Shown: positions 250 through 58,584 of the stretch, piece after piece | How the letters are laid out: every line of letters begins with the position of its first letter | How positions within the stretch are numbered: position 1 is the first letter of the stretch | The notes under the pieces: model-generated | Databases searched by the model: none | Told to the model about the DNA's origin: nothing | What the model saw: only the letters and a program-made list of their open reading frames with translations | Assembly (NCBI GenBank): GCA_009773355.1 | Contig: WRPG01000015.1 | Span: 62,001 to 126,000 of the forward strand | Direction: 5' to 3' | Length of the DNA: 64,000 nucleotides | DNA from: Limisphaerales bacterium | GTDB taxonomy: Bacteria > Verrucomicrobiota > Verrucomicrobiia > Limisphaerales > SXTU01 | Program-made: the position numbers and the translations under genes

Positions 250-3200
250 ATGAACACGCGCACCGCTGTCACGCTCGGGTTGGTTTTGCTCACTCACAGC
301 CTCGCCGTCGCGGCGGACTTGCTCACCAACGGCTCCTTCGAGTCCGCCGCCACGGGCTGGTCGCTGGCTGGCGGCGCGCCGCGTTACCAGCAGGTCGGCA
401 CGGCCTACGCGGGCACGAACGCGCTGCGCGTCTTCAACCGGGCCAACTTCACCAATGCGCCACAACAGGATGTGACCGTCGCCCTCGCCGCCGCGACCAA
501 CGGCGGGACATGGACCACGCGTTTCGCCGTGCAGGTGGCCGCGCCGACCACCGTGCGGGCATGGCTGCGCGTGGTCATGGACAACGCCGGGGTCATCGCC
601 ACGAACCGGCTGCTGCTCGCCGAGCGCGTGGTGCGCGCGACGAACCAGTGGGAGCGCATCACCGGCACGCAGACGTTTGGCTGGCCCGGCGCGCCGTCGA
701 GCGCGCTGTTCTACGTCGAGTGCGGCATGAAGCAGGAGCCAACCGGGAAGGCGTATCCCGACGCCATCTTCGATGACTTCGCGATTCGGCCCGACACGGA
801 CGGCGATGGCTTGTGGGACGAGGAGGAAGTGCCCGTCGCCCAAGGCGGTCTCGGAACGAGTCCGACGAACGCGGACACCGACGGCGATGGCCTGCGCGAC
901 GGCTGGGAAGTGGCCAACGGCACGAACCCGCTGGTGGCCGATGCGACGGCCGACCCGGACGGCGATGGCTTCACGAACTGGCAGGAGTTTCGCACAGCCA
1001 CCAGCGCGACGAATGCGCTCTCGTCCCCCGGCAAGCCCACGCACGCCGCGCTCACCACCAACGCCACCGCCGTGCTCAAGTATCTCGCGAAGCTCCCGCT
1101 CGCCGCGACCAACCGCGTGCTCGTCGGCCAGCATCTCACCGATACCGGGCCGGAGTGGACGAACCTCGTTGTGCGGCTCCAGCAGCGCACGGGGCAGTGG
1201 CCGGGGCTGGTGAGTTTCACGGCTGAGAGTCCGGTTACAAACTCGCCGGTCCAGACCGCCGGCATCCTGCCCTACGCGTTGGAGACGTGGACCAACGGCG
1301 GGCTGGTGCTCATCAAGTGGGCGCCGTGGAATCCTTGGAGCGGCAAGTTCGGTGCCGCCTCGGTGCCCACGCTGATTGACATCCCAGAGCTACTGAACCC
1401 TGCGCCCGCGCTGGCCACGAACCAAGTCGCGCGCAGCAATTACCTCGCGTGGCGGCAGACCATCGGCGACAGCCTCACGACCTTGCGCGATGCCGGCGCG
1501 CCGGTGCTCTGGCGGCCGTTCGCGGAGATGAACGGCACCTGGTTCTGGTGGGGCAACCTCCAACGCGACCACTACATTGCCCTATGGCGCGACCTGCACG
1601 GTTACTTCACGCAGACGCGCGGGCTGACGAATCTGCTGTGGGTCTTCGAGCCGGACCAGACGGTGCATCTGGTCGGCGGCACGACGAGTTCCGGCACGCC
1701 GATTGACTACTACTATCCCGGCGACGACGTGGTGGATGTGGTGGGCCACAACTTCTACGACGACGACTGGGCGCTGCCCTTCCGCAGCGATGAGATTTGG
1801 AGCCGCACCGGCAAAATCTTCGCCGTGCCGCAGGCCGGGCCGGGCCAGCTCCGCGACGGCTCGTTCGACAACCTCACTTATCTCAACGGCGTCACGAACA
1901 CGATTTCCCGCTGCGCGTTCTTCGTGCCGTGGAACAACATCACCGCCGGCACCAACACGAACTACCTCGCCATCGTGGACAACGTGAACGCCAGCAACCT
2001 GCTCGCGCACCCGCTGGTCGTCACGCGCGACGAGGTGAACTGGCAGGCGGAACTGCCGGCGGTCACGCCGCCGCCCCCGCCTGCGCTCGCGACGAATGAA
2101 GCCGTGGCCAATGGCGGCTTCGAGTCCGCGCTCATGGGCTGGGTGAACTACGGTCCGCTGGCAACCGTGCGAACAGTCGTCACGCCGGGCCGCACGGGCG
2201 GCAGCGCTCTCTCTGTCAGCAATCGCAACGGGGCGACCAACGGCCTCGCGCAGGACGTGCTCGCGGGCTTGCTCGCCAACGGCTCCGGCCAGCGCTACGT
2301 CACGCGCGCGTGGCTCAAGAGCGACCTGCCCACCAGCGTCCGCGTGCGGCTCGTGCTCACGGATGCGGCGGGCGCGAAGAGCCGGTTTCTCCTGGCCGAG
2401 CGACAGCTCCGCGAGGCGCAGACGAATCAGTGGAGTTTCATCGAAGGCGTGCAGACCGTGACGTGGAACAGCACGCCGACCAACGCGCTGCTCTTCTTCG
2501 AGACCGGCCAGTTGGTGGAGAATATCTTCCCGGCCTACTGGCTCGATGACGTTTCTTTCCAGCCGGACAACGACGGCGACCGCTTGAGCAACGCGGAGGA
2601 ACTCGCGCTCGGCACCAACCCGTTGCTCGCCGACTCCGATGGCGACGGCATCCCCGACGGCTGGGAAGCACGCCACGGCCTCGACCCGCTGACTGCCGCC
2701 GATGCCGCGTGGGACCGCGACGGCGACGGCTTCACCAACGTGCAGGAGTATTGGGCGGCGACCGACCCGACGCTGCGCACGAGCTTTCCCGGCAAGGCCT
2801 CCGTGACCAACGCAACCGACGCGGCGCGGCAAGTCCTCCTGCGGCTCGCGGTCGCGCCCAGCCAGCCGACGAACCGTTGCTTCTCCGGGCAGACCCTCAC
2901 CGGCGGCAACGTCGGCGTGCCCACCGAATACACGAACTTCTTTGTGAACCTCGCCCAGCAGACCGGCCACACGCCCGCCGTGATGCAACTGACTTACGAG
3001 GTGCCGCCCACGAACGTGCAGGCCGCCGTGATGAATCCCTTCGCCATCAGCCACTGGCAGGCCGGCGGGCTGGTGCTCGTCCATTACGCGCCGCCCAATC
3101 CCGTCAGCAACGGCCATCCCGGCGACCTGACCAACGTCGTGAACCTGACGACCCTCTTCACGCCCGGCACTGCCACGCACACGAACTGGATGCGGTCGCT

Positions 3201-3891
3201 CGACTTGTGCGCCGATGGCTTGCAGCAATTGCGTGACGCCGGCGTGGTCGTGCTCTTTACCATTCTGCACGAGAACAACGGCAGTTGGCTCTGGTGGCAC
3301 AAGCACCCGCGCACCGACTACGTCGCACTCTACCGTGGCGTTCACGACTACTTCACCCGCGTCCGAGGCTTGAACAACCTGCTCTGGATTTTCCATCCGA
3401 GCGAGGCGACGCACGACTTGCTCCCGATGGACTACTACTATCCCGGCGACGACGTGGTGGATGTCGTCGGGCCGAGCGTTTACAACTCGACCTTCCAGTT
3501 CCCCTTCCCGATGGATGACCTGTTCCGGGCTTATCCGAAAGCGTTCGGGCTGACGGAGGCGAACGCCAACGTCAACACCAACGCGTGGGATCTGAACATC
3601 CTGACGACCAACCTCGCCACCACGCTGCCGCGCGCGGCCTTCTTCTGCGCGTGGTCGTCGTTCCAGAACGGCGCGGCCCCGCTCACGCGCTACTCGCTCG
3701 TGCCCACCTACCTGCCGATGAACCTGAGCCTCCGCCGTCAAGGCCCCGCGTTCGCCGTGGACTGGGCCGGCGGCACGCTGGATTATTCGACGAACCTCGT
3801 CCATTGGACTGCCGTGACGAACGCCGCGCAGTCATGGCAGCCCGCGACCGGCAGTGGAATGAGCGTCTTCCGCGTGCGCCGCGAGCGGTGA
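250..3891 (+). CDS. Secreted tandem GH26 (mannanase-like) glycoside hydrolase with carbohydrate-binding and calcium-repeat domains
   Basis: 1213 residues. Residues 1-22 form a signal peptide (hydrophobic core, AVAA end). A galactose-binding-like module (NGSFES start, about 25-178) is followed by thrombospondin type 3 Asp-rich repeats (about 181-245; DTDGDG and DPDGDG motifs) and a GH26-type barrel (about 275-590). The same three-part order repeats: binding module about 617-770, calcium repeats 772-835, second barrel about 850-1150. Barrel 1 carries the acid/base motif PFAEMNG (Glu426) followed by WFWWG. Barrel 2 has LHENNG (Glu1008) and WLWWH. The expected nucleophile is Glu1103 (LTEAN) in barrel 2, but the aligned residue in barrel 1 is Gln528 (VPQAG). 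The C-terminal STNLVHWT motif is a common ending of Verrucomicrobiota secreted proteins. Likely role: extracellular attack on mannan-type polysaccharide, with barrel 1 perhaps only binding. GH26 assignment is from motifs alone. Confidence 0.85.
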   Translation: MNTRTAVTLGLVLLTHSLAVAADLLTNGSFESAATGWSLAGGAPRYQQVGTAYAGTNALRVFNRANFTNAPQQDVTVALAAATNGGTWTTRFAVQVAAPTTVRAWLRVVMDNAGVIATNRLLLAERVVRATNQWERITGTQTFGWPGAPSSALFYVECGMKQEPTGKAYPDAIFDDFAIRPDTDGDGLWDEEEVPVAQGGLGTSPTNADTDGDGLRDGWEVANGTNPLVADATADPDGDGFTNWQEFRTATSATNALSSPGKPTHAALTTNATAVLKYLAKLPLAATNRVLVGQHLTDTGPEWTNLVVRLQQRTGQWPGLVSFTAESPVTNSPVQTAGILPYALETWTNGGLVLIKWAPWNPWSGKFGAASVPTLIDIPELLNPAPALATNQVARSNYLAWRQTIGDSLTTLRDAGAPVLWRPFAEMNGTWFWWGNLQRDHYIALWRDLHGYFTQTRGLTNLLWVFEPDQTVHLVGGTTSSGTPIDYYYPGDDVVDVVGHNFYDDDWALPFRSDEIWSRTGKIFAVPQAGPGQLRDGSFDNLTYLNGVTNTISRCAFFVPWNNITAGTNTNYLAIVDNVNASNLLAHPLVVTRDEVNWQAELPAVTPPPPPALATNEAVANGGFESALMGWVNYGPLATVRTVVTPGRTGGSALSVSNRNGATNGLAQDVLAGLLANGSGQRYVTRAWLKSDLPTSVRVRLVLTDAAGAKSRFLLAERQLREAQTNQWSFIEGVQTVTWNSTPTNALLFFETGQLVENIFPAYWLDDVSFQPDNDGDRLSNAEELALGTNPLLADSDGDGIPDGWEARHGLDPLTAADAAWDRDGDGFTNVQEYWAATDPTLRTSFPGKASVTNATDAARQVLLRLAVAPSQPTNRCFSGQTLTGGNVGVPTEYTNFFVNLAQQTGHTPAVMQLTYEVPPTNVQAAVMNPFAISHWQAGGLVLVHYAPPNPVSNGHPGDLTNVVNLTTLFTPGTATHTNWMRSLDLCADGLQQLRDAGVVVLFTILHENNGSWLWWHKHPRTDYVALYRGVHDYFTRVRGLNNLLWIFHPSEATHDLLPMDYYYPGDDVVDVVGPSVYNSTFQFPFPMDDLFRAYPKAFGLTEANANVNTNAWDLNILTTNLATTLPRAAFFCAWSSFQNGAAPLTRYSLVPTYLPMNLSLRRQGPAFAVDWAGGTLDYSTNLVHWTAVTNAAQSWQPATGSGMSVFRVRRER

Positions 3892-4027: not shown

Positions 4028-4435
4028 ATGAATCCCCCAACGCCGGCCGCCCCCGCCACCACCACCTCGCGACCGATCACCGTGCTGCTGATCGAGGATG
4101 ACCGGGCCGTTCGGGAACCGATCAAACAATTCCTGGAGCGGAGCAACTATCGGGTGCTGACGGCCGAGAACGCCGAGGAGGCCTTGCTGCTCTGGACCGG
4201 CTACCGCAGCGCCATCGGCGCGGTGGTTTCGGATTGTGACCTGGGCACCGGTCCCACCGGACTGTCCGTGCTCCGGGAGATCCACCGGTCCACCCCCGCC
4301 CTGCCGCTGATCCTCGCCAGCGGCAGCCTCACGCCCGACTTGGTGATCGAGTTGGAGCGCACCACCGCCATCAAATGCCTGCCCAAACCGTTCAGCCTGG
4401 CCGAGCTGCTGGCGTTGCTGCCACCCAAAGCCTGA
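4028..4435 (+). CDS. Stand-alone response regulator receiver domain protein
   Basis: 135 residues, a single REC domain with no output domain. The acidic pocket is Glu23-Asp24-Asp25 (LIEDD), the phospho-acceptor is Asp69 (VVSDCDLG), the switch Ser is at 98 (LASGS), and the conserved Lys is at 120 (LPKP). About 15 Pro/Thr-rich residues precede the domain. It would take phosphate from a histidine kinase not encoded in this window and act through a partner protein. The gene is isolated: 136 bases downstream of the hydrolase gene and followed by a 327-base gap. Confidence 0.9.
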   Translation: MNPPTPAAPATTTSRPITVLLIEDDRAVREPIKQFLERSNYRVLTAENAEEALLLWTGYRSAIGAVVSDCDLGTGPTGLSVLREIHRSTPALPLILASGSLTPDLVIELERTTAIKCLPKPFSLAELLALLPPKA

Positions 4436-4762: not shown

Positions 4763-5347
4763 GTGGTGAAAACCAGCGTCGCGCACCGGACCCGCGAACT
4801 CCTCGACCAAGCCGCCAACTCGCCCGCCACGATGGCGCAACTGCGCGCCCACGCGCACCGCCGGCTGGAACGCGCCCGGCACAGTCTGCCCGCCGATGCG
4901 CTGAACCAACTCGCAGCGGATGATTTGGTCCAGCAGGCGCTGACCGAGACCTTCATCGGCACGCTGGCGCGCAATCGTGGCCGGCATCCGCGCCGACAGC
5001 ACCTGACCAACCTCCGTGTCTTCACCGACTTTTTGGGCAGCACGATCAACAGCCTCGTGAGCAACCAGCGGGTGGCGCTCGCCGCTCGCGTGCGCCACAC
5101 CGGGTTGTCGCTGGCCGCAGAAATTGCCTGCCCCGCGCCGAGCGTGCGGGAGCAGGTGGATTTCCGGTTGCGGCTGGCCGCGCTGTTCGAGGAATTGCGC
5201 GCCGAGTTCGCCCACCGCCCAGTCCTTCTCGAACTGCTCGCTGAATGGGCGCGCGATGGCGCGCACCTCGACCGACTGCCCGGAAAACCCTTCAACGCTC
5301 ACGCCGTACGCCAGGCTGCCCGCCGCATTCTCCGCCGCTCGCCGTAA
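4763..5347 (+). CDS. Small sigma-factor-region-2-like protein, copy 1
   Basis: 194 residues starting at GTG (a second GTG follows directly; no ATG or strong Shine-Dalgarno is seen). Residues about 45-110 resemble sigma-70 region 2: a DDLVQ motif, a helix, then FTDFLGSTINSLVSNQR. A GRHPR motif is shared with the next gene. No sigma region 4 DNA-binding helix is evident; the C-terminal third (QVDFRLRLAALFEELR, then AEWARDG) matches the equivalent part of the next protein instead. The two are therefore paralogues in tandem, 35 bases apart. A degenerate ECF-type sigma factor or a structural relative is possible, and the sigma link is an inference from a short motif. They may head the metallophosphoesterase/HerA operon. 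Confidence 0.6.
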   Translation: MVKTSVAHRTRELLDQAANSPATMAQLRAHAHRRLERARHSLPADALNQLAADDLVQQALTETFIGTLARNRGRHPRRQHLTNLRVFTDFLGSTINSLVSNQRVALAARVRHTGLSLAAEIACPAPSVREQVDFRLRLAALFEELRAEFAHRPVLLELLAEWARDGAHLDRLPGKPFNAHAVRQAARRILRRSP

Positions 5348-5382: not shown

Positions 5383-5952
5383 ATGAACATATCCATCAAC
5401 CTAGCTCAATCCACCACCCACCACCTCGAACGCCTGCTCCACGACCCGACGGCCCTGGCCCGGCTCCATGTCGTGGCCCGGTATCAACTGCATCGCAAGG
5501 GTCTGCCGCTCCTCGATCCGGGCGACCTCATCGGCGACGCCGTGCAGGCCGTCCTGCGCGGCACGCGCTCGCGCCGCCACGGCCGGCACCCTCGCCTGGA
5601 AGACGTGACCACGGCCGTCGCGTTTGAACAGTGGCTCAACGGCATTATGGAGAGTCTCGCCTCGGCCGGTGGCAAGGCGGCCCGGCGGGAGCTGGACCGG
5701 ACGCTCGATCTGCCAATGCCGACAGCGTCACCTGAGAATGCGGTGCCCGCCCAGGTGGACGCGCGGCTCCAACTCGAAGCCCTCCTGGGCCGGTTGCGCC
5801 AGCACTACGCCGGCAAGCCGGAGTGGCTGCAACTGATCGCCCAATGGGAGGCGGACGGCCTGCGCCGCTGCCCGGGCACCGCCGCCGAAGCCCGGGTGCT
5901 GCGGGACACCGCCCGCGAGTTGCTGCACGAAGGCGGAATGGAGCTGAGCTGA
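5383..5952 (+). CDS. Small sigma-factor-region-2-like protein, copy 2
   Basis: 189 residues from the ATG at 5383; an in-frame GTG at 5356 and TTG at 5380 are alternative starts. It is paralogous to the preceding gene: a DPGDLIGDAVQAVL stretch replaces DDLVQQALTETF, followed by GRHPR, FEQWLNGIMESLASAG, then QVDARLQLEALLGRLR and AQWEADG in the C-terminal half. As in copy 1, region 4 is missing. It reads toward the operon at 6010, from which it is separated by 57 bases containing a perfect 8-bp hairpin. Function is not established. Confidence 0.6.
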   Translation: MNISINLAQSTTHHLERLLHDPTALARLHVVARYQLHRKGLPLLDPGDLIGDAVQAVLRGTRSRRHGRHPRLEDVTTAVAFEQWLNGIMESLASAGGKAARRELDRTLDLPMPTASPENAVPAQVDARLQLEALLGRLRQHYAGKPEWLQLIAQWEADGLRRCPGTAAEARVLRDTARELLHEGGMELS

Positions 5953-5970
5953 AAAAAAGTTCAGAAAGTT

Positions 5971-5993
5971 CCACCGAAAGGTGCCTTCGGTGG
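5971..5993 (+). promoter_or_regulatory. Perfect 8-bp inverted repeat just upstream of the metallophosphoesterase gene
   Basis: CCACCGAA (5971-5978) and TTCGGTGG (5986-5993) pair perfectly around a 7-base loop. The hairpin ends 16 bases before the ATG at 6010 and 18 bases after the previous stop codon. There is no T-run after it, so it is a poor intrinsic terminator. An operator or an RNA structure affecting translation of the downstream gene is possible. Confidence 0.4.
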
Positions 5994-6009
5994 AGCGTAA
6001 TAGGGTAGA

Positions 6010-7524
6010 ATGAGTCAACTCTACCCGACCGCAAAACAGTTCCTCCAGCTCCACCCCACTGCGGGGAAAGGCCGCCTGGCGGCTCACCTCAACATTAAAA
6101 CGCCGTCCGCCCGGCGGCTCATCGAGCGCTACCGCGGCGAGACGCAGGGCCACGGCACCGACCCGGACTACTTCCGGGTCCGCCAGCTCAAGCAGGCGCA
6201 GCCTCAGTTGGGGGCGCATGGTGTCGCCGCACGCCTCGCCCTCACCGTGGACAAGGCTCGCCTCCACTTGGCCCGTTATGAAGGGGCACAGGTGTTCCAG
6301 AGTGCGGCCATAGCCGCGATGTTCCCCCCGGCCACGATGTTGCCGCCCGCAGCCGTGGCCGCAGCGGCTCCCGCCGTGTCCACCGTGCCAGTGCCGACCG
6401 CCGGCCCCGTCAGCAAGACCCCGGAACTGCAAGACTGCGTCGGCGACGCCACGCGCGACCTCAATTACCTCGGCCCCAAGGTGCGCACGATGGAGGAGTT
6501 GCTCGTTTACGCCGAAGTGGACCGCACCGTGTGGGAGGTGGAGCGCTATACGATCAACAAATGGGATGTCGGGGCCAAGGACCCGCAGAGCGGCAGCGTG
6601 CTCACCACGCCGCTCTACCAGATCAAAGTCTGGCTGCGTCGCCGTGTCGTGGAGCAGCAACTCCAGAACCTCATCACGGGCATGCTCGACGCCTTCAAGG
6701 TCGCCGCTCCGCCCGCCCGCGTCATCACCCGCCCGCCCGCCGGGGATGGCCTCCTGGAGATCAGCATTCTGGATCTTCACCTCGGCAAGCACTGTTGGGC
6801 CGAGGAAGTCGGCGAGGCCTACGACTTGAACATCGCCCAACGCACCTTCCACGCCGCGCTGGAGGACCTGCTGGCGAAGGGGGCGGCCATGAAGCCCTCC
6901 ACCATCCTGCTCCCGATCGGCAATGATTTCTTCAACGTCGATACCATTGCCGGGACCACCACCGCCGGCACGCCGCAGGATGAAGATGGTCGCTGGCAGC
7001 AAAGCTTCGTTGCCGGGCGCAAGCTGATGGTCCAAGCCATCGAACGCTGCCGGGAGGTGGCCCCGGTCGAGATCGTGATGGTCGCCGGCAACCACGACAC
7101 GGCCCGGCTCTATTACTTGGGCGAGGTGCTCGCCGGCTGGTTCCGCCACTGCCCGGATGTCCGCGTGGACGCCTCGCCCACCCAGCGCAAATACTTCCGG
7201 TGGCATCACAGCCTGATCGGCTTCACGCACGGGAACAACGAACCCGTGGCCTCGCTGCCCATCATCATGGCGACCGAGCAGCGCGCCGCGTGGGCGCAGA
7301 CCCTCCATCACGAATGGCACCTTGGCCACTTTCATGCTCGCCAGAAGAAAGTCTTCCAAGCCGTCGCCGATCAGCACGGCGTCATCGTGCGCGTGCTGCC
7401 TTCCCTGTGCCCGGCCGACGCTTGGCACAAATCCCGGGGCTACCAAGGCGCCCGCGCCGCCGAGGCCTTTTTCTTTGACCCCACGGCGGGCTGTGTCGCC
7501 GAGTTCCACCACCACCCCGCATGA
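6010..7524 (+). CDS. Metallophosphoesterase with N-terminal HTH-like repeats
   Basis: 504 residues. Residues 1-95 hold two similar helix-turn-helix-like units (GRLAAHLNIKTPSARRLIERY and HGVAARLALTVDKARLHLARY). An Ala/Pro-rich linker (98-135) follows, then a helical region. From about 248 comes a calcineurin-type phosphoesterase with all metal motifs: DLH (Asp255, His257), GND (304-306), GNHD (360-363), His407 and GHFH (439-442). The two-metal core is therefore complete, as in Mre11/SbcD-like nucleases and in metallophosphoesterases of phage genomes. The HTH part suggests DNA binding. Its stop overlaps the start of the HerA-type ATPase gene (ATGA), so the two products are probably made in a fixed ratio and may work together. 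A weak AGGG precedes the ATG. Confidence 0.85.
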   Translation: MSQLYPTAKQFLQLHPTAGKGRLAAHLNIKTPSARRLIERYRGETQGHGTDPDYFRVRQLKQAQPQLGAHGVAARLALTVDKARLHLARYEGAQVFQSAAIAAMFPPATMLPPAAVAAAAPAVSTVPVPTAGPVSKTPELQDCVGDATRDLNYLGPKVRTMEELLVYAEVDRTVWEVERYTINKWDVGAKDPQSGSVLTTPLYQIKVWLRRRVVEQQLQNLITGMLDAFKVAAPPARVITRPPAGDGLLEISILDLHLGKHCWAEEVGEAYDLNIAQRTFHAALEDLLAKGAAMKPSTILLPIGNDFFNVDTIAGTTTAGTPQDEDGRWQQSFVAGRKLMVQAIERCREVAPVEIVMVAGNHDTARLYYLGEVLAGWFRHCPDVRVDASPTQRKYFRWHHSLIGFTHGNNEPVASLPIIMATEQRAAWAQTLHHEWHLGHFHARQKKVFQAVADQHGVIVRVLPSLCPADAWHKSRGYQGARAAEAFFFDPTAGCVAEFHHHPA

Positions 7525-9485
7525 CACCCCAGCGCGACGACCTACTCCTGCGCCTGCCCTGTTACGAGCCGGCCGGCCAGTCCGTGGACCTGACGCTCGA
7601 CGAGCTCACGCAGCATGTCCTCGTCGCCGGCACCACCGGTGCGGGCAAGTCCAGCTTGCTCAATGAAGTCCTGTGGCAGTTGCTCCACTACCAAGCCGCG
7701 AGTCCCGTGCTCAAACCCGGCCTCCTAATCCTCGATGGCAAGGCTGACGACACGGTCGAGAAGGTGAACGCGTGGGCTGCGGCAGCGGGCCGGCTGGCGG
7801 ATGTGCAGGTGCTCGATGGGGATGGGGCGCATTCGTTCCCACTGTTCGGTGACCTGAAAAGTCTGGCGGCCGTGGACCGCGTCGCCACCGCCGTGCTCAC
7901 CGCCGTTGCGCCCATGTCGGTCGATAACGAATTTTGGGCGGAGAGCCGAGCCAGCGCCGTGCGGGCGGCGCTCACCGTGCTGGTGTATCAGCCGGTGAGC
8001 TACCCCGAAGCCGTCGAGGCCATCAGCGCGTGGCTGCTGCGCAACGAGCCGCCCGAGCGGGCGCTGCGCCACTTGAGCAAGCTGGCCAATCGCCCCGGCG
8101 TCAGCCCCTTCGCCCGGCAACGGCTGCGGGCCGTCGAGACCTTTGCGGTCTACTGGGCGAAGCTCGAGTGCCGCACGCGCAGCAACGTCCAGGCGACGCT
8201 GGTGCCGCTGCTCACCGCGCTGAGCGCCGCCGTGGCAGAACCGTATTTCGCCGGCCCGTCCGCCGCACCGTTCCTTCCCCGGGCCGCGCTGGCCGAGGGC
8301 AAGATTCTGGTCGCCAGCGTGAATGCCATCACCGAGCCGGAGTTCGCCCGGTTCCTGTTCCGGCTGCTCAAGGAGAGTTTTTTCGCCGCGTTGCACGAGC
8401 GCCGGAGTTGGTCACCCGCCCGGGAGCGGCTGGCGGTGTTGTTCGTCGATGAGTTTCCGCTCGTGGTGACACCGCGCGATGCCACACACCTCGCCACTTG
8501 TCGCAGCAAGGGTGCGGCCGTGATCGCCGCCACTCAGGGGCTGGCCCCGCTGCGGCAGGAGGTAGGCGAGGCCAACGCCACCACGCTGCTGCTAAACTTC
8601 AATTCATTTTGCTTCATGCGCTCTCGGGAGCTGGAGCTGGAGCTGTTCGCCACGCGCCAGATGGGCCAGCCGCCCGCGCCGCCGCGCCCGCCGGTCGTGC
8701 GGGAATGGAACGAGGGTGGGCTGCAGACTCGCGACCCAGTGCGCTTTGATTCGCCGTGGCCGCAGTGGGTCTGCCCGGTGGGTGCGCTTGGCCGCCTCGA
8801 AGCGCACCAGGCCTACGTCGCCGTCGTGGCCGCGCGTGACCCGCAACCCGTCTGGTTCGTCCCGCGCTTCTACGAGCGCAAGGAAGCGGCGCTGACGGTT
8901 CTCTTCAGCCCGCCCACGTTTCTGCCTGAGGAGGAATTGGACTACGAGGTGGCCCGACTGGAACGCTTGATGCACGGGGCCGGACGCAAACGGTTCGCGC
9001 ACGGCGACTGCGTGACGGCGCTGGGCAGCCGCATGGACGCCGCAGCCACTCTGCGCTGGCGCGAGGAGTTGCATCTGATGCTCACCGCCTGCGCGCTGGG
9101 CACGCCTTCGTCGGAGAGTCTGGCGACGCTGCCGGCGAGCTGGATCAAGGGCTTGGTGGGCGTGCTGGCGAGCCTCGTGCATACGCATGCCCATCACCCG
9201 TTTCCCCAACCGATCTCGCATCTGGGCCAGTGGCAGGGCGCGCTCATCGTGCGGTTCATCGGCGCGGAGGAACCGGCCGAGCTGGACGGCATCATCAAAT
9301 CAGAGGAACTTGACTACGGCCCGACGGTGCTGGAGTCGCTCCAGCTCCGGCTGCAATGGACGCTCTTCCCATCCGCGTTTCGCCCGCTGCGCCCGCGTGA
9401 CCGCGCGTGGCTGCGCCAGCACCGTCCCGAGCTGCTCCCGGCGCTGCCGACTCCTCCCCAACCAGACTCCCCACCGCTGTCATGA
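7521..9485 (+). CDS. HerA/FtsK/T4CP-type DNA-translocating ATPase
   Basis: 654 residues. Walker A is GTTGAGKSS (37-45, Lys43), and Walker B is LAVLFVDEF (Asp310-Glu311). A following SKGAAVIAATQG segment carries the Gln expected of HerA/VirD4-type hexameric motors, and FNSFCFMRSRE recalls type IV coupling proteins. There is no transmembrane anchor, so a cytosolic HerA-like pump is more likely than a conjugative coupling protein. It overlaps its neighbours on both sides by ATGA (7521 and 9482) and is flanked by two metallophosphoesterases. Archaeal HerA-NurA-Mre11-Rad50 sets and bacterial HerA-nuclease defence pairs are the nearest known logic, so a DNA-loading motor for the neighbouring nucleases is a reasonable inference. 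The C-terminal 250 residues are unassigned. Confidence 0.85.
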   Translation: MTPQRDDLLLRLPCYEPAGQSVDLTLDELTQHVLVAGTTGAGKSSLLNEVLWQLLHYQAASPVLKPGLLILDGKADDTVEKVNAWAAAAGRLADVQVLDGDGAHSFPLFGDLKSLAAVDRVATAVLTAVAPMSVDNEFWAESRASAVRAALTVLVYQPVSYPEAVEAISAWLLRNEPPERALRHLSKLANRPGVSPFARQRLRAVETFAVYWAKLECRTRSNVQATLVPLLTALSAAVAEPYFAGPSAAPFLPRAALAEGKILVASVNAITEPEFARFLFRLLKESFFAALHERRSWSPARERLAVLFVDEFPLVVTPRDATHLATCRSKGAAVIAATQGLAPLRQEVGEANATTLLLNFNSFCFMRSRELELELFATRQMGQPPAPPRPPVVREWNEGGLQTRDPVRFDSPWPQWVCPVGALGRLEAHQAYVAVVAARDPQPVWFVPRFYERKEAALTVLFSPPTFLPEEELDYEVARLERLMHGAGRKRFAHGDCVTALGSRMDAAATLRWREELHLMLTACALGTPSSESLATLPASWIKGLVGVLASLVHTHAHHPFPQPISHLGQWQGALIVRFIGAEEPAELDGIIKSEELDYGPTVLESLQLRLQWTLFPSAFRPLRPRDRAWLRQHRPELLPALPTPPQPDSPPLS

Positions 9486-10309
9486 CTACTCTCCGAGTGC
9501 TGACGGTCACCGACCTGCATCAGTCCCGGACGCTGGGCGAAGGGTTGCTCCGCGCCGTGCGGGAGCATCAGCCGGATTTGGTCGCGTGCGTCGGTGATGT
9601 ACTGGATTTTTCCGGCCGGCGCGGAAGCCAGTTCATCACCCCCGAGTGCGCGGAGTTTCTGGCGGCGCTGCCGGTGAAGGAATTGGTCTTCTGCCGGGGC
9701 AATCACGATGCTGAGGATTGGCCGATCTTCATGGAGTCGTGGCCTCACGAGCGTCGCCCTCTCATCCTGCTCCACGGCACGGCGCACGTCGTCGGCCCGT
9801 TGGTGATGGTGGGCTTTCCTTGCGACACGGGCTGGGACGGGCCGTGGCGCGAGACGCTGCCCAAGGTGGGCAACGTCGCGATGCTGGACCACACCCAATC
9901 CGGCCGGAAATCCCTCACCGCCAATCCTTCTCGCTGGCTGCGGCCACTGCTGCGCCAGCACGGCTCCGCCGGCCGCGTGCTCTGGCTCATGCACGAACCG
10001 CCGATGACCCAGCCCATCGCGCATCCCATGACTTGCAATCCCGACTGGTTCAAGCTGGTGTCGGCGCATCAGCCGTTGCTCTGCGTGAGCGGCCACGACC
10101 ACCACACCCCGGCGCGCAACGGCGTGTGGCACGCGCGCGTGGGCCAGTCGGTCTGCCTCAATGTTGGCCAAGGCATCGAGACGCTGCACTACACCGTGCT
10201 GGAGTTCACCTTCCCCTCGGACGCGCCGTGTGTGCCGGCTCGCGTGCTGGTGCGGGCGTTCCCCAGCGGAGCGCAACTGGACATCAACCCCGTGCAACTT
10301 GTCCCATGA
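9482..10309 (+). CDS. Second metallophosphoesterase (calcineurin-like)
   Basis: 275 residues from the ATG at 9482, which overlaps the previous stop as ATGA. The compact phosphoesterase core is complete: DLH (Asp11, His13), GDVLD (38-42), GNHD (73-76), His171 (LMHEPP) and GHDHH (204-208). It is only distantly similar to the first metallophosphoesterase of the operon and lacks its HTH region, so it does not look like a recent duplication. Likely a phosphodiesterase or nuclease acting on DNA or a nucleotide; the substrate cannot be told. It is coupled by another ATGA to the next gene. Confidence 0.85.
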   Translation: MTTLRVLTVTDLHQSRTLGEGLLRAVREHQPDLVACVGDVLDFSGRRGSQFITPECAEFLAALPVKELVFCRGNHDAEDWPIFMESWPHERRPLILLHGTAHVVGPLVMVGFPCDTGWDGPWRETLPKVGNVAMLDHTQSGRKSLTANPSRWLRPLLRQHGSAGRVLWLMHEPPMTQPIAHPMTCNPDWFKLVSAHQPLLCVSGHDHHTPARNGVWHARVGQSVCLNVGQGIETLHYTVLEFTFPSDAPCVPARVLVRAFPSGAQLDINPVQLVP

Positions 10310-10881
10310 ACCTGCTCCTTCTCCATCCCGATCTGCGCAGTGGCTACCGCCTCAGCCGGCATTTGCATCGGCACAGCCGGCACCACGTTGTCGCCGTCGT
10401 GCAGGCACCGCAGGACGTGCCGGCAGTCCTCCAACGCTGCCGCCCGGACTCCGATATCGAGGTCCAATGGCTCGTGTGCGTGGCGACTGGGGAGGCACCG
10501 CCCAGCCCGCCGGGTCTGTCCGTGGTCGCGTTCCCCGTCAACGCAAGCGGGGCCGAACTGGTGAAACTGCTCGATCAAGTGGATCCCTCCGCCACGCCGC
10601 CGAACCCGAGGGCGCAGATTTACCGCGACATGGAGCACGAGCTGAAGGTCCAGTATTTCGGGGTGGAGGAGTCCGAGTTCCTGCTGCTGCCGCGACTGGA
10701 GTATTTCGTCGTGCTGGATCGCATTGACGCGTTGCAAGGGCAGTCCCCGCGCAGCCGCGCGTGGCCGACCGAAGGTGGCAACGAACCGGCCCCCGAACCG
10801 GGCTGGGATCCCACCGGCACCTTTCGACCGGACGTGATGCAACAGGTCTTCGAGGAATGGAAAGCCGCCGGGAAAATCTGA
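10306..10881 (+). CDS. Unknown protein, fourth member of the ATGA-coupled operon
   Basis: 191 residues. The N-terminal half (LLLLHPDLRSGYRLSRHLHRH, then alternating strands and helices to VVAFPVNASGAELVKLL) looks like a small alpha/beta receiver-like or Rossmann-like fold, but no phospho-site or nucleotide motif is recognisable. The C-terminal half contains a conserved-looking YFGVEESEFLLLP segment and ends in a helix rich in Glu/Lys. Its start overlaps the stop of the second metallophosphoesterase (ATGA), so it is very likely a functional partner in that operon. I do not recognise the family. Confidence 0.75.
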   Translation: MNLLLLHPDLRSGYRLSRHLHRHSRHHVVAVVQAPQDVPAVLQRCRPDSDIEVQWLVCVATGEAPPSPPGLSVVAFPVNASGAELVKLLDQVDPSATPPNPRAQIYRDMEHELKVQYFGVEESEFLLLPRLEYFVVLDRIDALQGQSPRSRAWPTEGGNEPAPEPGWDPTGTFRPDVMQQVFEEWKAAGKI

Positions 10882-10907
10882 GACCATCGAATCAGCCATT
10901 CCGTATC

Positions 10908-11447
10908 ATGAACGCCATGCACGCCATCATCGTTGATCTCGAAGCGACCTGCTGCGACGCCGGCTCCATTCCTCCCCACGCAATGGAGATCATCGAGATC
11001 GGCGCCGTGGCGGTCCGCGCGGGTGATGGTGCGCCGCTCGCGGAATTTCAGAGCTTCGTCCGGCCCGTGCGGCATCCCCCGCTCACGCCTTTCTGCACGC
11101 AGCTCACCAGCATCCAGCAGACAGACGTGGACGATGCACCCACGTTCCCCGAGGCGGTCCTGCGGTTGCGCGCGTGGCTCACGCCGTTCAGCCCGTACTG
11201 TTGGTGCTCGTGGGGCGACTATGACCGAAAACAGTTTCGGCAGGATTGCGCGTTCCATCGCGTGGCGTTCCCGTTCGCAGGGCCGCACCGCAACTTGAAG
11301 ACCGAGTTTGTGGCCACGCGGGGCATGACGAAGAAGCTCGGAGTGAGCGAGGCGCTGCACGCTTTGGGCCTCAAGTTTGAGGGGACCGCGCACCGGGGCC
11401 TGGAGGACGCCCGCAACATCGCGCGGATTTACCAGCGACTGTGCTGA
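10908..11447 (+). CDS. DnaQ-like DEDDh 3'-5' exonuclease
   Basis: 179 residues, a single exonuclease domain. All four acidic/His positions are visible: Asp10 and Glu12 (DLEAT), Asp104 (WGDYD), and His162 with Asp167 (AHRGLEDARN), which identifies the DEDDh subfamily. The domain resembles the stand-alone ERI-1/KapD type rather than the polymerase III epsilon subunit, because the polymerase-binding tail is absent. It lies 26 bases downstream of the preceding operon on the same strand and probably trims 3' ends of DNA or RNA. Its last 14 codons (IARIYQRL end) are echoed twice further along the window. Confidence 0.9.
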   Translation: MNAMHAIIVDLEATCCDAGSIPPHAMEIIEIGAVAVRAGDGAPLAEFQSFVRPVRHPPLTPFCTQLTSIQQTDVDDAPTFPEAVLRLRAWLTPFSPYCWCSWGDYDRKQFRQDCAFHRVAFPFAGPHRNLKTEFVATRGMTKKLGVSEALHALGLKFEGTAHRGLEDARNIARIYQRLC

Positions 11448-15080: not shown

Positions 15081-15578
15081 TCATTCTTTGGGTCCCGCCG
15101 GCAAGCCGAAATAGGTGAAGAGCTTCATGGTGCGCGCCTCGATGTCTTGCTCCCGCATTTGGCCGCGTTCACAGATGGCGTTCATGGGTCCGAAGTCGTC
15201 CCGGAGGAAGTGCACCAGATCGAGCGGGTCACACGCCACTTGCACGGCGGAATGACCATCGCGCTGCAGCGTAGTGACCTCGGGCAGGCAGCACGTCACC
15301 ATGGCTCGCAAGGTGTCGGTGTCGAGGTTGCAGAAGTAAAGCCAGTAGGGCCAGGCGGCATGGAAGGCCGCATAAAACCTGCGGATCTCCGGGATGCAGT
15401 GGATTTCCCGCGGGTCCAGATCCCAGCCCTCCACGCAGAACAGGAAACGGTTCATGAGCCGCCGCAGCGGTTTCCCGGCCGGCAACTGTTCGGGACCGTA
15501 GAGGCTGAGGAAGTGGCGAAACTCGCCACGCTCCACCTTGTAGCGGCTGAACTGGTAGACAATGAGCTCTTCGGCCAT
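15081..15578 (-). CDS. Unknown 165-aa protein
   Basis: The start is taken as the ATG at 15578 (MAEELIVYQFSRYKVERGEF); an upstream in-frame ATG at 15617 would overlap the promoter region. The protein is soluble, rich in aromatic residues and Cys (FLFCVEGWD, YWLYFCNLDT, MVTCCLPEV), and predicted mainly helical, with no signal peptide and no recognised motif. It is divergent from the gene at 15698 across a 119-base gap and lies just upstream (in its own direction) of the broken secreted-protein gene, 84 bases away. Function unknown. Confidence 0.7.
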   Translation of the reverse strand: MAEELIVYQFSRYKVERGEFRHFLSLYGPEQLPAGKPLRRLMNRFLFCVEGWDLDPREIHCIPEIRRFYAAFHAAWPYWLYFCNLDTDTLRAMVTCCLPEVTTLQRDGHSAVQVACDPLDLVHFLRDDFGPMNAICERGQMREQDIEARTMKLFTYFGLPAGPKE

Positions 15579-15697
15579 GGCGGGGATAAGCCTACTTTTT
15601 CCGACCGATTCGGCCAACGGATTTCAGCGGCGATCGGCCATTCGTCGCTCGCCAATCCGGGCCAAACCCAATACTTGTGTCGGGCGGCATTTAATCC

Positions 15698-17831: not shown

Positions 17832-18629
17832 TCAAGTCGCTGCGGTCCTGCCCGGTGGCCATTCGCGTCGGAAGACCCGCTCCCGATGCCAGCCTAGGTA
17901 ACATTGGTGCCCGGCAACCTGTTGCCGCAGCGCGGCCAATGTTCCCAGCCCCAGCACACGGCGAGCGCTTTCGTCGAGCTGCGAAGATACCATCACCTCG
18001 CCAGTCTCGCTGATGGTGATGAAGCCCTGATCGAAGGCGGCGTCGAGGTGCGGCGCGAAGAGCAGTCCGTTGTAAACGTCGAGGCGCTCGGCATCCGTCG
18101 CGCAGTCGGCCCAAGGCTTGATGTGGCTGGCGCGAAGGAGTTCGGGGACGGCGAGGCCGGTGATGGCACAGCGGCCTTCCCAAAACTCCAGCAGGCCCTC
18201 GCGGAAGATGTCCTGCCCCACGCGCTGAATGACCAGCCGTTCCACCTCCGTCGTGCGCGGCAGTTTCGCGGTGCGGGCTTGGAAGACGTTCAGCAGTTCG
18301 TCCGGCAGGCTCCGGCTCAACTGAAACGCGCGCCGCAGCAGTCGGTGCAATGCAGGGATGTCTGCCACCAGCCAGCCGGCGATGGCTCCCGGAGGCAGCG
18401 CTGTGGCCTCCGGCAACCCCAGATGGCCCAGCGCCTCGGCGACACTCCGCTGGGAAACTCCGAGAAGGAATCCACCGCCCGCGTCCGTGCCGAGCACGAC
18501 GGTCAGCGGGCACAGCGTGCTCGCGAAACCCAACCAATCACCGCTGCTCGCCAACTCCCGGTCGAAGCCGTTGTCCGCCGCTGCTTTTTCGAGGCGGGAG
18601 GTGACTACGGATGACCGGGGCGAAGCCAT
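17832..18629 (-). CDS. HNH endonuclease (HNH_2 type)
   Basis: 265 residues. The C-terminal half is an HNH_2-style nuclease: Cys154 (RCAITG), ASHIKPW (His169), Cys176, then the core DVYNGLLFAPHLDAAFD with Asn187 and His194. The N-terminal half (about 1-120) is a separate helical domain of unknown role. Such nucleases often occur as accessory genes of restriction and defence clusters and cut foreign DNA. It is the last gene of the minus-strand operon, 6 bases after the YhcG-type nuclease gene. Codon use resembles its neighbours. Confidence 0.85.
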   Translation of the reverse strand: MASPRSSVVTSRLEKAAADNGFDRELASSGDWLGFASTLCPLTVVLGTDAGGGFLLGVSQRSVAEALGHLGLPEATALPPGAIAGWLVADIPALHRLLRRAFQLSRSLPDELLNVFQARTAKLPRTTEVERLVIQRVGQDIFREGLLEFWEGRCAITGLAVPELLRASHIKPWADCATDAERLDVYNGLLFAPHLDAAFDQGFITISETGEVMVSSQLDESARRVLGLGTLAALRQQVAGHQCYLGWHRERVFRREWPPGRTAAT

Positions 18630-18635
18630 GGCAGC

Positions 18636-19793
18636 TCAGTCGTTCGCGGATGTGTCGGCCTTCGGTGCGAGCTGGGCGTAGAGTTCGTGCAGCTTGCGTT
18701 GCAAGAGGGCCTTTGACGGCAGCACGGTCTGGTATTCCGCCACCAACGTGGGTGAGAGGCTTCGGCTCAACGCGTATTCCACGACCTCGGCGTCCTTGCT
18801 GGCGCATAGCAGCACGCCGATGGACGGGCGCTCGTGGGGCTTCTTCACGTCGCGGTCGAGGGCTTCGAGGTAGAAGTTCAGCTTGCCCAGATCTTCGGGC
18901 CGGAACTCACGAACCTTCAGTTCGAAGGCCACCAGGCAGGTCAGGCCGCGATGGAAGAACACCAGATCAATGGCGAAGTCCTGGTTGCCGACTTGAACCG
19001 GGTATTCCGAACCGACGAAGCAGAAGTCGCGGCCCAGTTCGGTGATGAACCGCCCGAGATTCCGGAGCAGCGCCCGGTGCAGGTCGGCCTCCGAGTGGTC
19101 GGGCGACAGGCCGAGAAACTCAAGCGAGTAAGCGTCTTTGAACTGCTCGGCGGCCTCCGGGTGAACTTCTCTCAACGCCGTTGAGAGCTTTGGCCCCGCC
19201 ACCACCCGGGCAAATGCTCCGCTGGCGATCTGTCGCTCCAACTCCCGGACAGGCCAGCGGTTGGACGCCGCCAGCCGCAGGTAGAACTCGCGCTCATCAG
19301 GTCGCTTCGTTCCGCTGAGGATGTGCAGGTGGGCGGACCACGGAAGTTCTCTCAACAGCGTTGAGAGAACTGGCGCATCCCGGTAGGCGTCGAAAAACTG
19401 CCGCATCCGCCAAAGATTCTGCGGGGAAAAACCGCGTGTGCCCGCCTGGGTGCGCGCCAAATGCGCCGCCAGTTCCGCGACCGTGCCCTTGCCCCAGCCG
19501 TCGTGTTCGATGCGGGTGCTGATGACAGCCCCGATCTTCCAGTAAAGTTCGATGAGCTGGACGTTGATCGCCCGCCCGGCCTCGCAACGGGACGTCTCGA
19601 TGAGCGCCACGATCTCATTGAAAGCCGCGAGCGAAGACTGCTTGCGGGACGGACCTGCGCCGGCTGCGCGCCTGGGCCGCATCGGCAATTGTCTCACCGC
19701 TGGTGCGACTTTCTTTCCCGGTGGCTTGGCCGGCTGCTTGATAGCCTTTTGCTTTGGGGTGCTGCGAGTCTGGCGGGGTGGGCGTTTCTTCAT
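18636..19793 (-). CDS. YhcG/DUF1016-family PD-(D/E)XK nuclease
   Basis: 385 residues. After a Lys/Pro-rich tail of about 40 residues comes the DUF1016 N-terminal domain (LIELYWKIGAVISTRI, then GFSPQNLWRMRQFFDAY, LRELPWSAHLHIL). The C-terminal nuclease domain follows (FCFVGSEYPVQVGNQDFAIDLVFFHRGL, then LVAFELKVREFRPEDLGKLNFYLEALD), with the Asp-(x)n-Glu-x-Lys core visible in AIDLVFFHRGL and AFELK. The family is usually found beside restriction-modification or defence genes; one proposed role is DNA repair or cleavage. Its ATG overlaps the kinase stop (ATGA), implying co-translation with the kinase. Confidence 0.9.
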   Translation of the reverse strand: MKKRPPRQTRSTPKQKAIKQPAKPPGKKVAPAVRQLPMRPRRAAGAGPSRKQSSLAAFNEIVALIETSRCEAGRAINVQLIELYWKIGAVISTRIEHDGWGKGTVAELAAHLARTQAGTRGFSPQNLWRMRQFFDAYRDAPVLSTLLRELPWSAHLHILSGTKRPDEREFYLRLAASNRWPVRELERQIASGAFARVVAGPKLSTALREVHPEAAEQFKDAYSLEFLGLSPDHSEADLHRALLRNLGRFITELGRDFCFVGSEYPVQVGNQDFAIDLVFFHRGLTCLVAFELKVREFRPEDLGKLNFYLEALDRDVKKPHERPSIGVLLCASKDAEVVEYALSRSLSPTLVAEYQTVLPSKALLQRKLHELYAQLAPKADTSAND

Positions 19794-20746
19794 GAAATAC
19801 CGGGGGAAAGAAGCAGTTCTGTCGGTGTCGTCGGCAGGGTAATGTTCAAGTCACGCCACAACTCCATGGCACTCGAGGTGCGAGCCGAGGCATGCCTTCG
19901 CAGCGCTTTGGCCAGTGCGAAATTCAACGGCGGCGGCAGCGCCTCAGCCAACTCCCGAGGCTTGCCCGCGAGAACCTCCTCCTCTGTAAAGACCAAGAGC
20001 TTCGACGACGCCAACTGAAGCAGCAGCAGTCCCGCGTGATACAGATCAATACGGTAATCGATGGGACCGAACTCGTCCGGCTTCAATACCTCCGGAGGAA
20101 GCATCCACCTCGCGCGAGTGTTCGCTGCATCAACCTCCTGGAACAGTTTAGCCACCCCGAGGTCTGCCAGCTTGAATTGAATTGCCTTGGCCTCAGTGGG
20201 CATCTCGTCTTTGACGAATGTGGTGAAGACGTTTCCCGGGTGAATGTCCTGATGAACGAGCTTGTTGATGTGGAGAAAATGGATGGCCTGAAGGAGATTC
20301 CGAGCAATCGGCATCACCCAGTGTAGCCCCGAGAATTCATTCAAACTAAACAGGTCAGCAACGGGCCCCCAGCAACGCTCGGTGACAATGTAAAACGTGT
20401 CGCGAAACTCAAAGGCATCGTAGATGTAGGTGATCGTGGGATGCCTCAATGCGACGAGTTTGGCAAACTCCGCTTCAGCGGATGCCCTGACCTTCTCGTA
20501 AGACATTCCACGCGGTTTCAGGACTTTTACGGCGAGAGCGTTCTTCCAGGTGTCGGTGCACGAATACACCACTCCGAAGTTCCCCTCCCCGATGACGTGC
20601 CCGATTGTGTAGGTGTTACCGGTCAAGAAGCTGGTGATGACCTCGCCTTCCACAGGGGGAACGAACTGCTTTGCAGGTGGGACGGGAGACGCTGTGGAAG
20701 GCTGCACCGCTAGCCCCGCTTCGCCGGTGTTAGTGGGGTCTGTCAT
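19790..20746 (-). CDS. Serine/threonine protein kinase (Hanks type, non-RD)
   Basis: 318 residues, cytoplasmic (no membrane segment). A Pro/Ser-rich tail (1-35) is followed by a complete kinase domain: glycine loop IGEGNFGVVY (52-61), catalytic Lys74 (LAVKVLK), Glu93 region, catalytic loop VHQDIHPGN (Asp167, Asn172) and DLG (195-197) instead of DFG. HQD replaces HRD, so it is a non-RD kinase that probably does not depend on activation-loop phosphorylation. Kinases inside defence operons (for example PglW in Pgl/BREX or stand-alone Stk2-type) signal phage infection; by analogy it may activate the SMC-like ATPase or nucleases here. It starts 4 bases after the stop of a 58-aa gene and overlaps the YhcG-type gene. 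Confidence 0.9.
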   Translation of the reverse strand: MTDPTNTGEAGLAVQPSTASPVPPAKQFVPPVEGEVITSFLTGNTYTIGHVIGEGNFGVVYSCTDTWKNALAVKVLKPRGMSYEKVRASAEAEFAKLVALRHPTITYIYDAFEFRDTFYIVTERCWGPVADLFSLNEFSGLHWVMPIARNLLQAIHFLHINKLVHQDIHPGNVFTTFVKDEMPTEAKAIQFKLADLGVAKLFQEVDAANTRARWMLPPEVLKPDEFGPIDYRIDLYHAGLLLLQLASSKLLVFTEEEVLAGKPRELAEALPPPLNFALAKALRRHASARTSSAMELWRDLNITLPTTPTELLLSPGIS

Positions 20747-20750
20747 GCTC

Positions 20751-20927
20751 TCAGTTGGCGAACGTGGCTTTTGGTGGCTCGCAGCAGGTTGGGTCTACTG
20801 GGGGTGGGTTGAGGCTGGTTTGGTAGGGGGTGCCGGTGCGGGCGGACTCGGCGAGAGCGTGGTAGAGTTCGGCGGGTGACGCGTTTGGTGCGGTATTCAC
20901 GTTGAGCCTGCTCCCCGAGCTTTGCAT
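20751..20927 (-). CDS. Small 58-aa protein between the SMC-like ATPase and kinase genes
   Basis: This frame begins at the ATG at 20927, only 6 bases after the TGA of the SMC-like gene, with a GAGG Shine-Dalgarno formed by that stop region. It ends at the TGA at 20751-20753, 4 bases before the kinase ATG, so it fills the only apparent gap in this part of the operon exactly. The product starts MQSSGSRLNVNTAPN, has a short helix-forming core (SPAELYHALAESARTG) and ends in a Pro-rich tail with a CC pair. No family is recognised. A small regulator, antitoxin-like or adaptor peptide is conceivable. Confidence 0.6.
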   Translation of the reverse strand: MQSSGSRLNVNTAPNASPAELYHALAESARTGTPYQTSLNPPPVDPTCCEPPKATFAN

Positions 20928-20933
20928 CCACCC

Positions 20934-22952
20934 TCACAGCTCCTCCTTGAACAGCTTCCCGTATGGCTTGGTCGCATCCAGTTCCAGGCACAGGTGGGGT
21001 GGGGTTGTCATTCCCGTCGGCGGCTCCTCGGTGGTGGTGATGATGTATTGGAACGAAGCGGCGGCCCGGTCCTCCAGCAGTTTGGCGAGCTGGAAGAGGG
21101 GCCGGTAAAGACTCAGTTCCATGTCGGACTCGCGAGGGCTGTCGTGGATCACCAGGCCAGGGTGGTGGCCGATGCCGTTAAGCCCGGCAATCAACGCGCA
21201 GTAATCAAACGCCAGACTGCTCAATGCGTTGTAGGCCCCGCCGCCCGACCCGATGCGGGCGTTGATTTCGTCGCGGGTAAATTTTAGCTCCGCATCTGCC
21301 CGCTCTCCCTTGAAGAAGTGGCAGACGGCCATGAAGACCTCGACGAGTTCGAGTTGACGGGCACGAACGCTCTTTTGAGCTTCGTCCTGTTTCGCCTTGC
21401 TGAGTTCGAGCTGCTCTTCCACGTCCTTGAGCGTGGTGCGCGCTTCATCGAGCCGTCGGTGGCTGAACACAGTATCCTCCGCCCGGACGCGCCAGCTTGC
21501 TGCCTCCTGGTCAAGAGTGACGATCTCCTCGCGCAGCGTCGCCCGGCGTTCGCTCATCTCATTCCGCTGCCTGCGCGCCACCGCTTCTTTGCCGCGGCAG
21601 GCGTCGAATTGCTGGGAAAACTGCTGAAGGTTTCGCTTCAGTCCCGCGAGCTGCTTGGCGACGTGTTTCCGCTTCTGCTCGGCCAGCTTGGGCACGTTTC
21701 CGCCTGTGGCCGCTGGAGTCTCCTCGGACAGCCGCTTCTCTTGGAGCAGTGGGCACTGGAACAACGCGATGTTCACCGGAATCTCGCAGAACGCGCGATC
21801 TGGTTTCAGTTTCGCGATGATCACATCCAACGCATCCACATCCTGCTGCGTCGGTTGCTCGTTCTCCGTGAAGCGCCCGAGGGCGTCTTCGGTCTCCTCG
21901 ACCAGCGGGGACAACTCGTCATACTGGGCTTTCGCCAAGGCGGTCGCGCCGATGGCTGCTTCCAGTGTGGATTCGAGGTCGTCCAGTTTGAGCGTGGCGA
22001 GTTGCGCTGCCAGCTTTGCTCGTTTCTCGGCAACCAACAGCTTCGCGTGTCTGACAACAACGTCAACGAACAGCGCCTCGCCCACGGCAGGCAAACTGTC
22101 GCCGTTGGGCAACTCGGCCCGGGCGCGCTGCAATGCGTCCGTGATCCGGCGCTCGAAATAGCGCGCGTTGTCCGTCTGGGTTCCCTTGTCCCGCATCAAC
22201 GCATTGCGTCGCTCGATTTGGCGACGCTCTTCGACATCGGTCACTCCGAGGATGCACCGGGCCAGAAACTGCGCTTCGTTGGCGGAGAGTTCGGGCGAGC
22301 CGTGATCGGAACTAACATCCCGCCACTTGAACAGGCCGGCCAGGTGCGACTCTTGATCCCGCGCCAGCCATTGCAGGATATGCAGCCAGCGGATTGGCTT
22401 CTGCCCTCCGTCATCAAAAGTCTGCACGGCGAAATTCCCCACCACGCGGCTGTCGATGACTTTGACGAAATCCTCATGTGTCCGCCGGTCCTTCGCCGGG
22501 GCGACGATGAGCTGGTCCAAGGTGACGCCCTTAATCGCGAAGTGATGGGCACCAGTGTAGAGCGGCCGTGCCACGGCCCACGGTTCACCGTCCAAAATTA
22601 CTTCTCCGAGCACCCAGGCGCGATTCAGCGATTCCTTCGCGGCGATGGCCAGGCGGAGTTCCTCGTTGCCGTAGTGCTCCTCCCCGAGCAGGTAACGGAG
22701 CAGCCGGCAGAAGGAGGTCTTGCCAACGTCATGCCCCCGCCCGCGTGCCGCAGGATTCGCCTCATCCGGGTCCGCCGGTCTGGCCCAGATGATGTTGACG
22801 CCCCGATGAAGCAGAACCCGGCGAATCTCGGCCTCCACACCAGCCTCAAGTCGGTAGAGCAGCCGCACTTCGCGAACCCACAGCATCGGCTCCCGCGTGG
22901 TGTTGGGCTTCAACCAATCGCGCTTCGGGAGAATGTTCAGCTCGGGGTTCAT
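20934..22952 (-). CDS. Rad50/SMC-like coiled-coil ATPase
   Basis: 672 residues. The Walker A is atypical but complete: GHDVGKTS (73-80, Lys78) followed by FCRLLRYLLG, as in small SMC-like proteins. Long Glu/Lys/Gln-rich coiled-coil stretches lie at about 265-365 and 430-560. The C-terminal ATPase half has a signature-like region (NALSSLAFDYCALIAGLNG) and a Walker B/D-loop variant GLVIHDSPRESD. There is no zinc hook CxxC. These ATPases sense or bridge DNA ends and often pair with a nuclease. It lies 12 bases downstream of the methyltransferase gene and just ahead of the 58-aa gene. Confidence 0.85.
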   Translation of the reverse strand: MNPELNILPKRDWLKPNTTREPMLWVREVRLLYRLEAGVEAEIRRVLLHRGVNIIWARPADPDEANPAARGRGHDVGKTSFCRLLRYLLGEEHYGNEELRLAIAAKESLNRAWVLGEVILDGEPWAVARPLYTGAHHFAIKGVTLDQLIVAPAKDRRTHEDFVKVIDSRVVGNFAVQTFDDGGQKPIRWLHILQWLARDQESHLAGLFKWRDVSSDHGSPELSANEAQFLARCILGVTDVEERRQIERRNALMRDKGTQTDNARYFERRITDALQRARAELPNGDSLPAVGEALFVDVVVRHAKLLVAEKRAKLAAQLATLKLDDLESTLEAAIGATALAKAQYDELSPLVEETEDALGRFTENEQPTQQDVDALDVIIAKLKPDRAFCEIPVNIALFQCPLLQEKRLSEETPAATGGNVPKLAEQKRKHVAKQLAGLKRNLQQFSQQFDACRGKEAVARRQRNEMSERRATLREEIVTLDQEAASWRVRAEDTVFSHRRLDEARTTLKDVEEQLELSKAKQDEAQKSVRARQLELVEVFMAVCHFFKGERADAELKFTRDEINARIGSGGGAYNALSSLAFDYCALIAGLNGIGHHPGLVIHDSPRESDMELSLYRPLFQLAKLLEDRAAASFQYIITTTEEPPTGMTTPPHLCLELDATKPYGKLFKEEL

Positions 22953-22964
22953 GGGGTAATCTCG

Positions 22965-27479
<4,515 letters not shown>

Positions 27480-27481
27480 GG

Positions 27482-55827: not shown

Positions 55828-55836
55828 AGGATTCTC

Positions 55837-57363: not shown

Positions 57364-57367
57364 ATAG

Positions 57368-58582: not shown

Positions 58583-58584
58583 GA

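Follow-up and report, generated by a model that had tools for sequence, protein, structure and literature searches.

Type IV coupling proteins such as TrwB of R388 and DotL/IcmO have a nucleotide-binding core that carries an all-alpha insertion, and they normally take DNA from a relaxase. In HerA-NurA, which works with Mre11-Rad50, a hexameric-type motor is encoded in an operon with nuclease-type genes, and one study reports an interaction of Mre11 with HerA (PMC2288612). DndH/DptH is the ATPase of phosphorothioation-dependent restriction. Phages encode a family, phrog_704, that is annotated as 'DNA repair exonuclease', and to our knowledge the role of nucleases of this type is not established. 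The operon described here, which offers a testable handle on these phage nucleases, lies amid numerous mobile-element and defence genes in a stretch of 64,000 nucleotides (the window; positions C59:62001-126000 of its contig, C59) from a Limisphaerales genome that totals 6.16 Mb on 162 contigs. We found nothing in the literature on this combination of genes.

Four genes on the forward strand, P2 to P5, are chained by overlaps of the form ATGA at positions 7521, 9482 and 10306, as the original prediction had proposed. One such overlap is ordinary, since 17 of the 108 called genes on the contig end in one, but the contig has three in succession only in this operon. P2 (6010..7524, 504 residues) is a phage-type metallophosphoesterase with an N-terminal HTH-like region, and P3 (7521..9485, 654 residues) is an ATPase. 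P4 (9482..10309, 275 residues) is a second metallophosphoesterase (Metallophos 1e-10) with complete motifs, so that both of the predicted phosphoesterases are present. P5 (10306..10881, 191 residues) is an orphan: it matches nothing in Pfam or NCBIfam, and a search of 12 genomes found it no relative. P6 (10908..11447, + strand, 179 residues), whose ATG at 10908 lies 26 bp past P5, proved to be the expected DEDDh 3'-5' exonuclease, with an RNase_T match of 5.7e-22 and the motifs DLE, GDYD and HRGLED; its KapD-like score of 103 bits in NCBIfam is under the equivalog cut-off of 169. The predicted interval, 5383-11447, does contain the operon, but its first 570 bases belong to a separate gene that had gone unnamed, P1 (5383..5952, + strand), for which an alternative in-frame ATG at 5245 is possible.

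The motor had been predicted to be of HerA type, and this assignment does not hold. P3 matches the Pfam family TrwB_AAD_bind (9.9e-10), and its profile, compared with solved structures, has DotL (6e-12) and TrwB (1.1e-8) as its best sequence matches and no HerA at E <= 0.01. The predicted structure (pLDDT 78, pTM 0.64) has TrwB as its top fold match (Z 27.6 over 380 residues, rmsd 3.8), followed by the C-domain of DndH (Z 23.6), DotL (22.9), HerA (about 20-22) and FtsK (about 18). Both the nucleotide-binding core and the all-alpha insertion align with TrwB. Residue 1 of the model aligns to TrwB residue 101, showing that the N-terminal membrane anchor is absent, and the highest 19-residue hydropathy mean in P3 is 1.48, with no stretch of that length strongly hydrophobic. 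HerA chains align to model residue 1-5 only from about their own residue 110-150 onward, implying that the HerA N-terminal HAS-barrel domain is missing from P3. This missing domain and the order of the fold matches rule out a HerA-type motor. As judged from its sequence and predicted structure, P3 is an ATPase of the conjugative coupling-protein type without a membrane anchor. It further differs from TrwB and DotL in having an extra C-terminal region and in having no adjoining relaxase or secretion genes that we could recognise.

The resemblance to HerA-NurA-Mre11 processing that had been noted for this locus is thus confined to the arrangement of a motor in an operon with nuclease-type genes. 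P3 lies nearer to TrwB and DotL and has the lower HerA fold score and missing domain described above, P2 is of a phage family rather than a cellular Mre11, and neither NurA nor another known HerA partner is found among P1-P6 with Pfam, NCBIfam or PADLOC.

P2 has no Pfam match, and its profile matched no solved structure. Residues 175 to 503 match phrog_704 (E 4e-70), and at least 1915 phage records contain relatives, which are annotated as DNA repair exonucleases; in IMG/VR, a pattern scan confirmed at least 591 of the 600 candidates listed. On this sequence evidence, P2 belongs to a family that is abundant in phages. Its calcineurin-type metal-site motifs (DxH, GND, GNHD, THG and GHxH) are invariant in three element copies and are shared with Mre11/SbcD, whereas a Rad50/SbcC partner is absent and the neighbours of P2 are P1 and P3. 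P2 also differs from its phage relatives in its setting, being located in a bacterial element and gene-overlapped with a motor.

The phage copies of P2 that we inspected have no constant neighbour, such as a terminase, and neither the phage collection nor IMG/VR, the latter scanned with strict patterns, yielded a match to P3. We rejected a phage packaging module on these grounds, and a plasmid conjugation module because P3 has just three weak plasmid matches. The motor is of the conjugation kind, but the gene set was not found as a well-described packaging or conjugation module.

Elsewhere in the order, P3 with the long C-terminal region occurs at seven loci in five genomes: L028 (G401), L029 and L016 (G496), L030 and L031 (G431), L032 (G383) and L123 (G590). 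It is absent from all ten congeners, implying that P3 was acquired. Within the order, P2 copies were detected in the window, G496, G401 and G383, and also, on reading the P3 locus, in G590. The G383 copy is located among phage-like genes and is far from the others in the tree; each of the four non-phage copies found immediately precedes P3. The P2-P3 junction is an exact ATGA in the window, L029 and L123, and in L028 about 11 bp separate P2 from P3. These four P3-linked copies form one clade (100/100) in an unrooted tree otherwise made up of phage copies and two outliers, which is consistent with a single capture of P2 into the element lineage. The coupling has been kept despite divergence of P2 to about 50% and of P3 to about 36% identity, and this conservation supports the view that the pair is a functional unit. 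P3 occurs without P2 in L030 and L031, and the P3 tree does not separate the P2-linked members from other long members.

The original prediction had called for a survey of P3 neighbourhoods, and those of its relatives pointed to mobile elements and not to known defence genes. In both L030 and L031 a P1 homologue adjoins P3, an SSB gene lies upstream of P3 (Pfam 4.5e-26 in L031), and KfrA-like genes (KfrA_N 8.6e-8 and 7e-6) and integrases are present, the L031 integrase being identified from its sequence without a Pfam match. At L123, P2 and P3 are accompanied by a P1 homologue, a receiver protein and an integrase with a weak match that precedes tRNA-Ala, and L032 contains P3 and an integrase followed by tRNA-Cys. 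The integrases near P3 at these four loci are tyrosine integrases. The association of a motor-nuclease module with SSB, KfrA and tyrosine integrases argues for mobile-element DNA handling rather than HerA-NurA repair.

The window contig itself contains an integrase (C59:146836-147924) that is 51% identical to that of L032 and adjoins a tRNA-Cys(gca) gene (C59:148096-148170). The 18-bp 3' end of this tRNA gene recurs once, at C59:42296, 106 kb away, and a search of 158 kb that allowed three mismatches gave no further copy. An integrase at a tRNA gene with a repeated 3' end is the arrangement of an integrative element, and the operon (C59:66.0-73.4k) is positioned between the tRNA gene and its repeat. 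In congeners the tRNA does not adjoin the right-flank gene. Segments within the 106-kb region are 88-89% identical to congeners, and we describe the stretch as delimited by an att-like repeat rather than as a single mobile element. No convincing att pair was found among direct repeats around L030, L031, L123 or L005. Taken as a whole, the observations support the assignment of the motor-nuclease module to integrative elements.

Several further features of the contig touch on its history. Upstream of the window, a run of integrase-like genes, some of them with weak or no Pfam matches (C59:48-56k, equivalent to L007:6360-14192, + strand), suggests stacked integrations. The GH26 gene at 250-3891 (+ strand) encodes a protein 86-90% identical to copies in four congeners, and the DNA similarity of this segment to these congeners ends at about window position 3702, immediately ahead of the operon region. 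The contig, which also has a transposase, contains dispersed homologues of further element genes. They include a gene at 15081-15617 (- strand), here far from P3, whose homologues immediately precede the gene of the P3-like ATPase in L005, L006 and L017, and a PcfJ-like gene (3.9e-7) at 62230-63453 (+ strand) that is homologous to element proteins in the same three loci.

The element context could also accommodate a role in maintenance of the excised element, with FtsK- or SbcCD-like replication, dimer resolution or end repair and no part in transfer. Such a role would fit the presence of SSB and of KfrA, a plasmid-replication-type protein, with P3 in L030 and L031, the lack of a membrane anchor on P3 and the repair annotation of the phage relatives of P2. 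Nevertheless, we consider it unlikely given that P3 resembles TrwB and DotL more closely than FtsK and that no replication initiator was recognised adjoining P3.

P1 has no sequence match in Pfam. Its predicted structure is helical, and the top eleven structural matches are ECF or other sigma factors, the best being a modest, ECF sigma region 2-like match (Z 8.4 over 84 residues); whole-length matches have an rmsd above 15. The model of P1 thus resembles an ECF sigma factor in region 2. Directly upstream is a paralogue (4763..5347, + strand, 34% identity to P1), likewise ECF-sigma-like, that aligns with the P1 homologues beside P3 in L030, L031 and L123. A receiver-domain protein (4028..4435, + strand; Response_reg 1.7e-17), whose membership of the module is uncertain, is 34% identical to the receiver domain of L123:7415-8263, a protein that is likewise located near a P1 homologue and P3.

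The P4 profile matched no solved structure. Among 255 genomes of the order, 10 others have P4, in most cases as a chromosomal gene standing on its own. A 50% identical homologue adjoins P3 in L031, and an insertion is common to the window, L031 and L166 copies and absent from the others. The L166 copy adjoins an integrase and contains a stop, and in the L031 copy (L031:7807-8607, - strand), a possible pseudo-enzyme, the DxH and GNHD motifs are gone but the frame is intact. These losses imply either that P4 catalysis is dispensable or that those elements are decaying. About 500 bp from the L031 copy is a gene for an IscB-type protein (L031:5913-7328, - strand; RRXRR 7.8e-49 plus HNH).

The degraded P4 copies, the mostly stand-alone occurrence of the gene, and the scattered element homologues and transposase on the contig would all fit a chance or decaying assembly from stacked insertions with no joint function. 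This explanation is very improbable: none of the operon's reading frames in the window is interrupted, the motifs are intact and the overlaps tight, and P2 and P3 have remained coupled across the divergence noted above.

More distant relatives of P3 provide a link to DNA transfer. The L124 relative neighbours a TrwC relaxase-helicase (Pfam 3e-73), and a gene homologous to this relaxase is found near the P3 relative of L125. The L006 element, which has a P3 relative, contains a MobA/VirD2-like gene whose weak match (1.7e-4) is below the Pfam cut-off, and L005 has a gene that is relaxase-like by eye with no Pfam match. Beside the long P3 subfamily no relaxase or type IV secretion genes were recognised in the stretches read, of which L031 is the most complete, and neither these nor an origin of transfer were identified for the window element.

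We tentatively favour the explanation that the operon serves a family of Verrucomicrobiota integrative elements as a module for processing and pumping DNA, with P2 in the place of the relaxase. From the fold of P3, its coupling to P2 and the neighbouring genes we infer that the operon probably processes or moves the element's own DNA. P1 would switch the module on. Following excision of the element by the integrase, the N-terminal region of P2 would bind the DNA, and the two-metal site of P2 would nick or trim it. A P3 hexamer, recruited by P2, would then pump the processed DNA. This pumping would either feed a transfer channel that a different element provides in trans or serve to resolve the excised copy and make it secure, with P4 and P6 trimming ends or clearing by-products. 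P2 would in this way fill the place held by a relaxase in the more distant P3-bearing elements. It is a rather speculative possibility that the element is mobilised independently of a relaxase, the captured phage HTH-phosphoesterase recognising and cutting the DNA and handing it to the translationally coupled soluble motor. If so, the tying of a motor to a metallophosphoesterase of phage origin would represent a new way of handing over DNA during horizontal transfer; otherwise, the operon would encode a motor-nuclease machine of a new kind that serves element maintenance or defence.

Anti-phage defence is the main rival to an element DNA-handling module, although we think it rather doubtful. 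Here the coupling-protein-like motor would load the two phosphoesterases and the exonuclease onto invading DNA, comparable to DndH/DptH or HerA-nuclease systems. The C-domain of DndH is the second-best fold match of P3, HerA defence complexes share the fold at the scores given above, and the PADLOC model mad8 matches the P3 ATPase at 2.9e-10. A large defence cluster (17832-35619) starts about 6 kb downstream of the operon, and mobile elements commonly carry defence cargo. Against this reading, PADLOC names no system in the operon: its matches to P2-P6 are single-domain or weak, and no Dnd/Dpt partner was recognised with Pfam, NCBIfam or PADLOC. Moreover, relatives of P2 and P3 adjoin integrase, SSB and KfrA genes rather than known defence genes, and P2 is itself of a phage family.

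The downstream defence cluster (- strand) encodes an HNH protein, a DUF1016/YhcG nuclease, a mad6-like Ser/Thr kinase, an LmuB-like protein, a DrmMI/Eco57I-type methyltransferase, a DpdE-like helicase (1.7e-182) and a DruE-like protein of 1772 residues (2.2e-92). It appears to be a hybrid, matching PADLOC models of several different systems with no single system obvious. A possible separate system is present at 54412-61485 (- strand), where genes for a sigma-54-activator-type AAA protein and an SF1-type helicase have two genes between them.
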